In this document: piece by piece, positions 16,775-59,514 of the stretch | Position numbering within the stretch: the first letter of the stretch is position 1 | Layout of the letters: each line of letters begins with the position of its first letter | Origin: Arcobacter sp. EP1 | Lineage (GTDB): Bacteria > Campylobacterota > Campylobacteria > Campylobacterales > Arcobacteraceae | Length of the DNA: 64,000 bases | Assembly (NCBI GenBank): GCA_001655195.1 | Contig: LPNY01000139.1 | Location: 420,923 to 484,922, forward strand | Direction of reading: 5' to 3' | Translations under genes and position numbers: made by a program | The notes under the pieces: generated by a model | Databases searched by the model: none | What the model saw: only the letters and a program-made list of their open reading frames with translations | What the model was told of the DNA's origin: nothing

Positions 16775-16937
16775 GATATCACAAAGAGGAGTACCTCTTC
16801 ACTCTATGTAACTTTTGCCTTAGAGGATTTAGTCACTTTGCTCTAGCATAGTGTAAAAGTAACCAAAAACGTCAACGGCTTCAACACCATGGGATTCCCT
16901 CTCTATAAGTTTTATATTTCTAGCTTGCGGAACTCAA
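16775..16937 (+). repeat. Hairpin-array repeat, truncated copy C3
   Basis: It matches the reverse strand of 57725-57850, sharing segments such as CGTCAACGGCTTCA, TTCCCTCTCTA and TTTCTAGCTTGCGGAACTCA. The first stem (AAGAGG/CCTCTT, 16784-16799) is kept. The second stem is weaker and its loop carries an extra hairpin insertion of about 35 bases. The later hairpins of the longer copies are missing. Several G-to-A changes relative to the other copy suggest decay. Confidence 0.8.
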
Positions 16938-17017
16938 TAATAATGAATATAAATAATACTGTCTAATTTATAATATTTTGTTTCTGATTTAAAATAATAG
17001 TATTTTTGAGTAAAATA

Positions 17018-57294: not shown

Positions 57295-57533
57295 CTATAT
57301 CATAAAGACCTAAAGGTCTTCACTCTACTTACTTTTGTATTTACGAAAAGTAAGCAAAAAAAACTGCCGGTTGATAAAGGCAAAGCTTCCCTACAGTTTT
57401 AAATTCATTTTCTGTCCTGCAGAACTCCCTAAAATGTGCTCCCAGCACATTTCTTAACGGTCAAACAGGCTTCGGACGGTTTCCGAAAATAAATCCAAAA
57501 CTTTCGGCTTTATCAAAGGCAGAAATACAACCC
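57295..57533 (+). repeat. Hairpin-array repeat, copy C1
   Basis: The order of elements is a stem AAGACCT/AGGTCTT (57305-57320), the spacer CACTCT, a stem CTTACTTTT/AAAAGTAAG (57328-57354), then CAAAA, CTTCCCT-ACA-GTTTT, and GCAGAACTC. A stem AAATGTGCT/AGCACATTT (57432-57452), TCAAACAG and a TTTCCGAAAATAAA/CTTTCGG module follow. The copy at 57615-57858 has the same order in the opposite orientation, with different stem sequences. Confidence 0.8.
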
Positions 57534-57614
57534 ATTGAACTCTAAACCTGAAATAAAACTAGTTGAGTGTAACACCAGTTTAAAGTTTAATGGTATTTAA
57601 ATAAGTCAATGTCC

Positions 57615-57858
57615 TTATCCCTGTCTTGTCAACCTCTGCAAGCGCCGAACGGAGAGTTTTTTATTTCGGAAAAAGCTGAGGACTGTTTGAGTAAAAGAAA
57701 GTACTAGATGTACTTTCTTTTATGAGTTCCGCAAGCTAGAAATACAAAACTTGTAGAGAGGGAACCCATGGCGCTGAAGCCGTTGACGCTTTTGGTCACT
57801 TTTACGCTAAAAGTAATAAAGAGTGAAGAGGTAATCCTCTTTGCGATATTACGCCAGT
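57615..57858 (-). repeat. Hairpin-array repeat, copy C2 (inverted)
   Basis: Read on the minus strand, the order matches C1: AAGAGG/CCTCTT, CACTCT, TTACTTTT/AAAAGTGA, CAAAA, CGGAACTC, then an 11-bp stem (57693-57721), CTCAAACAG, and TTCCGAAATAAAAAACTC with GTTCGGCG. The fourth stem (AAAAGAAAGTA/TACTTTCTTTT) shares almost no sequence with the C1 stem yet is perfect. Confidence 0.82.
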
Positions 57859-57942: not shown

Positions 57943-59322
57943 CTATTTTCTTTTAAAGGAGGAAATGATATCTGTGACAGTAACACTATTTTCATCTTGA
58001 ACTATTCCATGTGTTGTTTGTCTAAAAATACTTTCAATCATGATTTTTTTATCATTCTCTTCTAGTGCATTTCCTTCTTTTATTAAAGCTAGATATGTCT
58101 TAATCATTGTTACACGTTCCTTTGCATCAATTGATAAATGATAACTGCTTAATGCTATTTTCATTACTATTCGAATAATCCAAATCGCTAAAGAAATAAG
58201 CAAAATCATAAATCCATATTTTATAAAATCTATGTTCATTAATCCACTTTGAACTTTATCTATACCACTAGAGCTCTTAACTTGTGAGACATCAACAGTT
58301 TTAACAATTTCTGCTTTAGCATCAGCTGCAAAGCCTAAATCAATTTGAAAAATACTAAATACTAACAATAGAGAAGCTATTATTGCAATCCACAAATATT
58401 TTGTATACCGTTTTGAATAAAACTCTATTTGTTCTTCCCAAAACTCTTTTGATGCATTTGTTTTTATTTCACTCAATGCTGCATTTTTTGCATTCTCAAA
58501 TTCAGCCTTTATAGATGCTGATTCTTCATAGATAACTTTTACATTCTCAAAAAGTTCACTCTTATCATTTAATTGGTTTTCTAACTGCTTTATCTCACCA
58601 TAAAGTTTATCTTTATCGTCTTCCAACTGTTGTATTCTTCTACCATTTGTTGTCGAGTTTTTTAAATCTTCTTTAAAATCCTCTTTTTGGATTTCATCAA
58701 AAATTGTATTGTCAAAAATCTTTTCAACTATAATAGGTTCATAGGATTTGTAACTAGGCTCTCTATTTTCAAATGCAACTTCCATTAGTTTTTCTTTTGA
58801 AACAGGCATACCAGTTTTTTCTTCTCCACCTATAAAGACGATCGCATTATTTTTACTTCTAAATACTTTAAAAACCTTATTTCTAACTTTTGTTCTTAAC
58901 ACTAAATTAGGATTTTCTTCTGAAGTATTTAGTAAATCAATTAACTTATCATACCTCTTAGAAAACTCTTCTCTTGTGATTTTAATTTCATCAGGTTGAA
59001 GTTCATATCTATCTATCAATCTTTTAGAAAACTTCATTAGATAGTTCATATTATCTTCTATCTCTATAAAGTTACTTACAATAGAGTTTCTATTTGAACT
59101 TAATTCCATAATTCTTTCTAATCTAAGAATCATCTTCTCTTTTTCATGCTCTGTCAATAAAGTTTGAAAACCATTTGCTCTCTCTACATAAACCTTAATT
59201 ATCTCGTTGAAACTGTTAATTGTTTTATCCATGACACCAGCACTTTTTAAAACTTTAGCTACAGATTCACTAGCTAGTCTATTCTCTACATCTTCTAAAA
59301 TACTTTCAAATTTATTATTCAT
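57943..59322 (-). CDS. Coiled-coil membrane protein, DUF6161-like
   Basis: 459 residues. A soluble N-terminal helical region (1-215), a coiled coil (about 228-285), two transmembrane helices (about 310-330 and 367-390), and a C-terminal cytoplasmic region with SSYHLSIDAKERVTMIKTYL and IFRQTTHGIVQDE. The last two blocks recall the uncharacterised DUF6161 family. No enzymatic motif is visible. It is flanked on both sides by repeat families (57295-57858 and 59394-59514) and is the only gene between them. This suggests an accessory gene; its function is unknown. Confidence 0.7.
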   Translation of the reverse strand: MNNKFESILEDVENRLASESVAKVLKSAGVMDKTINSFNEIIKVYVERANGFQTLLTEHEKEKMILRLERIMELSSNRNSIVSNFIEIEDNMNYLMKFSKRLIDRYELQPDEIKITREEFSKRYDKLIDLLNTSEENPNLVLRTKVRNKVFKVFRSKNNAIVFIGGEEKTGMPVSKEKLMEVAFENREPSYKSYEPIIVEKIFDNTIFDEIQKEDFKEDLKNSTTNGRRIQQLEDDKDKLYGEIKQLENQLNDKSELFENVKVIYEESASIKAEFENAKNAALSEIKTNASKEFWEEQIEFYSKRYTKYLWIAIIASLLLVFSIFQIDLGFAADAKAEIVKTVDVSQVKSSSGIDKVQSGLMNIDFIKYGFMILLISLAIWIIRIVMKIALSSYHLSIDAKERVTMIKTYLALIKEGNALEENDKKIMIESIFRQTTHGIVQDENSVTVTDIISSFKRK

Positions 59323-59393
59323 GTATCACCTTGTTTTATTTTAGACTAACATTACTATGTCACAGTTTCTGTCACAAAAACAAAAATATATTA

Positions 59394-59514
59394 AAAAAGT
59401 CATATTTTTTATTAATTCAAGGCAGACAAGAATTTTTTAAAGGAGCTTACTAAAGTAAGTGACTGCAAAGAAATTTACAGTCGAACGCAGAAATCATGAA
59501 AAAGATAACTTTTT
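59394..59514. repeat. Inverted-repeat element, copy S-B
   Basis: Shares with 17018-17161 the blocks TTCAAGGC, GACAA, GGAG, TTAC-(4)-GTAA, GTGAC or ATGAC, AAATTT and AACGCAGAAAT. The ends (59394-59412 and 59496-59514) pair with a few mismatches. The inner stem is CTTAC/GTAAG where the other copy has TTTAC/GTAAA, a compensatory change. It sits just after the stop of the dadA-like gene. Confidence 0.8.

Follow-up and report, generated by a model that had tools for sequence, protein, structure and literature searches.

The stretch from 57299 to 57847 of the window, the window being the whole 64,000 nucleotides of Arcobacter DNA analyzed here, contains two facing units of a folded element that is dispersed in the genomes of its family and recurs in several other bacterial groups; with a slightly better than even chance, this is a dispersed non-autonomous mobile element whose folded single strand is recognized by trans-acting machinery. 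The A half of the pair, unit C1 (57299-57529, + strand; nhmmer profile E 4e-61; 147 bits with the covariance model R1), and the inverted B half, unit C2 (57629-57847, - strand; E 1.5e-39; 135.6 bits), flank a central spacer (57530-57628) of the roughly 50-100 nt kind that is partly conserved in relatives. These profile borders bear out a sequence-only reading of this DNA, according to which C1 and C2 are facing copies with one order of stems and linkers; the modules run P1 hairpin, CACTCT, P2 hairpin, CAAAA linker, P3, P4, P5, P6, ACTC, P7, TCAAACAG, TTTCCGAAA and P3'. In C1, the outer hairpin P1 (AAAGACC-TAAA-GGTCTT; 57304-57320, +), which shows compensatory changes, is followed by T-rich sequence, the P2 hairpin CTTACTTTT/AAAAGTAAG and the CAAAA linker echoing its 3' strand lie at 57328-57354 (+), and the core (57364-57522, +), closed by P3 (CTGCC..TTGATAAAG / CTTTATCAA..GGCAG), contains P4, P5, P6 and P7. 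The variable hairpin P7 of C1, AAATGTGCTCCCAGCACATTT (AAATGTGCT/AGCACATTT; 57432-57452, +), stands between the conserved ACTC and TCAAACAG. Its counterpart in C2 (AAAAGAAAGTAC/GTACTTTCTTTT; 57693-57721, -) is a perfect stem of unrelated sequence, as had been noted for this "fourth stem", its length being 12 bp and not the 11 bp first given. The third copy named in the same reading, C3, is a truncated or damaged one at 16778-16940 (+) covering profile positions 2-135 (nhmmer E 6e-17), and the earlier statement that no ORF explains the region agrees with the lack of any ORF of at least 60 aa running through C1 and C2.

Each unit comprises about 230 nt and seven helices, and the same fold was obtained by RNAalifold (83 non-redundant units), by mutual information and by the covariance model: a P1 hairpin, a P2 hairpin, the linker echoing the P2 3' strand, and a closing helix P3 followed by P4, P5, P6, an internal loop and P7. 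The internal loop is fixed, with ACTC on one side and CTCAAACAG opposite, while P7 is free to change in sequence between copies and P3 occurs as CTGCC/GGCAG, CCAAC/GTTGG, GTCAAC/GTTGAC or CCAGAC/GTCTGG. Over 119 distinct aligned rows, 92.3% of the cells were pairing, 992 cells were changed on both sides as compared to 307 in shuffles, and the covariation score was 0.521 as compared to 0.186 when shuffled and at most 0.109 with slid partners, an absolute value that leans upward because the alignment was fitted to the model; unfitted MAFFT alignments agree with this result. Compensatory changes thus exceed both the shuffled and the slid controls, and for 120 aligned matches the structure was better than in 500 of 500 shuffles on every measure. 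Together with about 20 related places found in the source genome by DNA search, the best of them with E values down to 4e-100, this means that the likeness of C1 and C2 is not due to chance. The proposal that conserved pairing in the face of changing sequence points to a structured RNA or a hairpin DNA element was thereby strengthened: the covariance model, the wider genome search and the covariation test that it called for were all positive, and neither an insertion sequence end nor a coding remnant nor an Rfam family was recognized. In the model-fitted alignment, the unit strand had 450 G-U or U-G cells and 129 A-C or C-A cells, where shuffling would give 597 and 372; this excess favors the unit strand as the folded strand, which may fold as RNA or as single-stranded DNA, both being compatible with it. 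Pairing of P7 alone, compared across phyla, reached p<=0.05 in 27% of 48 units, in a test that is weak given the many very short P7 loops.

The source genome and its relatives are termed Arcobacteraceae-like here on the basis of their gene content. Among 60 genomes searched at the DNA level, the source genome and nine others contain the unit; they all belong to one family and represent seven genera, and a profile built from about 75 fetched loci detects 127 units. When the covariance model was run, under stricter filters, against 200 genomes of the phylum, three gave matches, including one from a different family of the same order. The complete facing element measures about 550 bp, with a partly conserved spacer, and two-unit elements in Arcobacteraceae-like loci were oriented '><' in 45 of 45 cases; single units also occur. 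The elements are intergenic, lying between 18 convergent, 50 same-direction and 7 divergent gene pairs, and they are found near stop codons. In many copies of the source genome (L037-L043, L048, L050), a single unit precedes another conserved block of 220-350 bp, which has its own P2-like hairpin. Moreover, a hairpin-like insert of about 25 nt (TTGTGCTTGCACTCTCTTTGAGAA or its complement) recurs within units (L060, L300 and others of genomes G013 and G242) and resembles a small parasite of the element.

Copies within a genome resemble each other closely: the best copy elsewhere in the same genome has a median identity of 92-94%, reaching 98.2% for L039/L040 in the source genome (G000) and 98.7% for L060/L058 in G013. 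When G013 and G242 were compared at orthologous loci, the paralogue was closer than the orthologue in seven of eight cases, which fits recent spread or gene conversion. Relatives also differ in the presence of the element. At one core-gene gap of a Betaproteobacterial genus, several species have the full element and others a short gap, the latter sometimes with a terminator-like hairpin directly after the stop codon (L382, L384-L386, L389), and reduced remnants comprising P1-P2 or P1 only were found at this site as well (L379, L387). Likewise, within the G013/G242 pair, L056 carries the element and the same site in G242 and G030 has a terminator-like hairpin after the valS-like gene and a GGDEF/EAL-type gene, the element of L312/L300 and L316/L304 is absent in G013, and at L308 G242 retains P1-P2 alone. 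Target-site duplications could not be read at these sites, since the flanks of empty and filled sites are too diverged or replaced. In these respects the element is similar to MITEs such as NEMIS/Correia, ERIC and BrickBuilt of Porphyromonas, which are short, non-coding and dispersed, have inverted ends and are present or absent between relatives, and the facing units form inverted terminal repeats in all 45 two-unit elements of Arcobacteraceae-like loci. It differs from them in that the inverted ends, whole folded domains with covariation, account for most of the element, that no parent insertion sequence or target duplication was found among the fetched loci, and that one motif is common to several phyla.

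In the mobile-element reading proposed here, the complete element consists of two facing units around a short spacer. Each unit folds as a single strand, which would be RNA or DNA exposed during replication, the P1 and P2 hairpins preceding a domain that P3 closes around P4-P7 and the fixed loop ACTC / CTCAAACAG. A trans-acting enzyme would recognize this fold, and selection would therefore keep the pairing and the loop while the stem sequences drift. Copies would settle just downstream of genes, where the outer P1 hairpin may replace the transcription terminator, and once scattered they might provide portable homology for the exchange, presumably by homologous recombination, of flanking accessory genes, including defence genes in Arcobacteraceae-like genomes. 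Should movement be demonstrated, this would point to an unrecognized machine acting on folded RNA or single-stranded DNA.

The main alternative is a structured RNA serving the host at gene 3' ends, either as a two-sided terminator or as an mRNA-stabilizing 3' UTR, which was duplicated and kept by selection. This rather unlikely explanation is in line with the closeness of the elements to stop codons, with the terminator-like hairpins of several element-free genomes at L056 and at the Betaproteobacterial site, and with G-U cells being commoner than A-C cells on the strand that is read from the flanking gene. The P1 hairpin of C2 (57826-57842, -) also scores as terminator-like, at 57841-57826, being the only one to do so when a GC hairpin and a T run are sought as in intrinsic terminators. 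Furthermore, some elements are retained at orthologous loci across genera, an age that is high for a selfish element and suggests a function for which they are kept. Against this, the structure goes far beyond the needs of a terminator, the copies are scattered with patchy presence and arranged as facing pairs, and paralogues are closer to each other than orthologues. The mobile element outlined above is preferred.

Several possible movers of this element were considered. REP sequences are palindromes of 20-40 bp with a stem of 5-13 bp and a 4-bp tag at one end (GTAG/CGTC), and their inverted pairs have spacers of 20-100 bp and are intergenic near gene 3' ends (PMC3733652). The reading of the present element as an oversized REP/REPIN whose mover is a Y1 (RAYT, TnpA-REP) transposase is in line with its dispersed intergenic palindromes near stop codons, in facing pairs around a short spacer, as is also known from BIMEs (PMC3733652), and with the presence of a Y1 transposase in several element-carrying genomes. 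However, the present unit of about 230 nt exceeds the REP palindrome many times over and has a conserved multi-branched fold with an internal loop, and no Y1_Tnp match was found in the carriers G008 (99% complete), which is rich in elements, and G016 (74% complete). It is G008 that weakens this reading, which we regard as very improbable. A retro-element copied from folded RNA by a reverse transcriptase is hardly credible: the strongly folded, RNA-like unit and its strand preference would suit it, but eight genomes with several copies each (G000, G013, G014, G018, G030, G032, G252, G256) have no RVT_1 match, which largely refutes it as a resident mechanism. No autonomous relative with its own transposase was seen among the fetched loci. 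Genes for transposases of the IS110 family were found within units in two phyla (L105:2811-3797 of the Arcobacteraceae-like genome G008 and L254:3179-4201 of Ferrigenium), which is the likeness to IS110/IS1111 systems. IS110 as the mover was dropped: the two copies interrupt units at different points, each at a different conserved motif, and so look like later insertions into the element.

In Arcobacteraceae-like genomes, homology often breaks at the unit edge, with different accessory genes beyond it, some of them defence genes. At several orthologous loci the unit is constant and the adjoining gene different: L315 and L298 cease to be homologous 6 bp beyond the unit, after which their genes differ, and L065 and L302 do so after 11 bp, their homology resuming at a second palindromic repeat; the swapped gene codes for a TIR-like protein in one of the latter two genomes and for a KAP NTPase in the other. 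In the window, the gene adjoining the element (57943-59322, -) codes for a DUF6161 protein (Pfam PF19658, E 2.4e-13) matching the phage-resistance protein AbiZ (PADLOC, E 1e-8). The second palindromic repeat (AAGGAGC-hairpin-GTGACTG...CGCAGA) has a similar sequence in the window at 59417-59499, beyond the start of this accessory gene; near other accessory genes it was found at about 3786 of L065, 3982 of L302, 4566 of L072 and 1555 of L074, and it is exactly there that the homology of L065 and L302 resumes. Upstream of the DUF6161 gene, at 59359-59376 (-), lies the motif TGTGACAGAAACTGTGAC, which is common to other element-adjacent genes of the source genome; in the form TGTGACNGNAACTGTGAC it precedes several element-adjacent accessory genes of that genome (this one and those at L038, L042, L043, L045 and L046), and it has one exact match in the window where chance would give a mean of 0.01 with up to two mismatches allowed.

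PADLOC models gave 371 matches for 148 element-adjacent proteins as compared to 15 for 107 controls, counts artificially raised by redundancy among the models of restriction-modification proteins. Of 20 neighbors taken at random, four had PADLOC matches, as compared to no more than 16, and probably some ten, of the 107 controls, which is suggestive of an enrichment of defence genes by the elements, perhaps twofold, and does not establish it. The claim that a defence gene lies next to most elements was accordingly cut back on account of this random sample and of the Betaproteobacterial neighbors, which showed no clear excess of such genes. The clear defence-type neighbors comprise SIR2, KAP, TIR-like, HNH, and type I and II methylase and specificity genes, to which Pfam adds EcoO109I. 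The element marks accessory-gene turnover in Arcobacteraceae-like genomes, and the genes beside units thus offer a simple route in the search for new defence genes.

These swaps also bear on a quite improbable explanation, by which the unit would be the cis-acting recombination site of an integron-like gene-cassette system and the adjacent single gene its cassette. The same unit is found with different single genes at orthologous loci with breakpoints at its edge, some of the cargo is of defence type, and in a Gallionellaceae MAG an 8xMP (octameric membrane protein) gene is flanked by two nearly identical units that face each other at a distance of 1.3 kb (L188:72-1388). A folded element beside exchangeable single genes, some of them for defence, is likewise a feature of integron attC sites and of the attC-like OTH-22-1 motif (PMC8632094). 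Compared on these features, however, the present element differs in that its units form no arrays and that an integron integrase scored over the cut-off in only three of eight element-rich genomes, the source genome not being among them. In addition, the units of other phyla mostly lie between housekeeping genes, and the swaps are explained equally well by homologous recombination. Returning to the preferred mobile element, a more far-reaching version, which we consider unlikely, is that the units are the cis-acting ends of a phylum-crossing mobility system working on a folded single strand, which in some lineages would carry or swap single defence genes between chromosomes.

Evidence for the wider distribution came from a pattern search of genome contigs with GAACTC-gap-CTCAAACAG-NCC, a motif similar to intergenic sequence of proteobacteria. 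Matches in Dechloromonas, Azonexus, Gallionella, Niveibacterium and others represent the same unit with P1, P2, the linker and P3-P7 in order, while Marinobacterium and other groups match in part and chance matches are also present, as expected. Model R1, which was trained on Arcobacteraceae-like copies only, detects several of these units with E values of 1e-8 to 1e-4, and the consensus fold of 37 units from proteobacterial loci has the same helices. The groups with the motif are Beta-/Gammaproteobacteria, Bacteroidales, Lachnospiraceae, Gastranaerophilales, Myxococcota and Patescibacteria, the core motif alone having been checked in the more distant ones. The facing arrangement recurs as well, with a '+' unit followed by a '-' unit at a distance of 260-377 bp in 14 of 20 Betaproteobacterial regions and with facing pairs in Parcubacteria.

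No Rfam family scored above its gathering score in the window and 15 loci from other groups, and the relaxed-threshold matches to tsr26 and SQ2397, being weak and AT-rich, were set aside as chance. No published account of the motif was found by sequence or description in a literature search that reached the smaller part of subscription papers. A survey of GC-rich intergenic regions (GC-IGR) for structured ncRNAs covered a related genome, Arcobacter sp. L, and classed some of its motifs as mobile or repeat elements or as structured DNA (PMC6429828); the present element has no Rfam family match, is apparently uncatalogued and may overlap with an unnamed candidate of that survey or of the survey in PMC8632094. 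A folded element in several phyla, with up to dozens of copies per chromosome and in no RNA-family library, constitutes an annotation blind spot. The tested elements were absent from the E. coli and phage collections, and the plasmid collection gave two weak matches only, on very large replicons of Variovorax and Ilyobacter. In 19 genomes of other groups that had given a match, a tighter pattern found between 1 and 49 copies per genome, with 3 to 49 in 14 of them, and the reversed pattern found 0; as these genomes were picked for that match, the figures describe copy number and not prevalence. There were 49 copies in a Myxococcota MAG, 12 in Niveibacterium and 6 in a Bacteroidales MAG. A Candidatus Parcubacteria MAG of 0.8 Mb (G256; L221, L245) has at least 34 copies, which is remarkably many for a genome so reduced.
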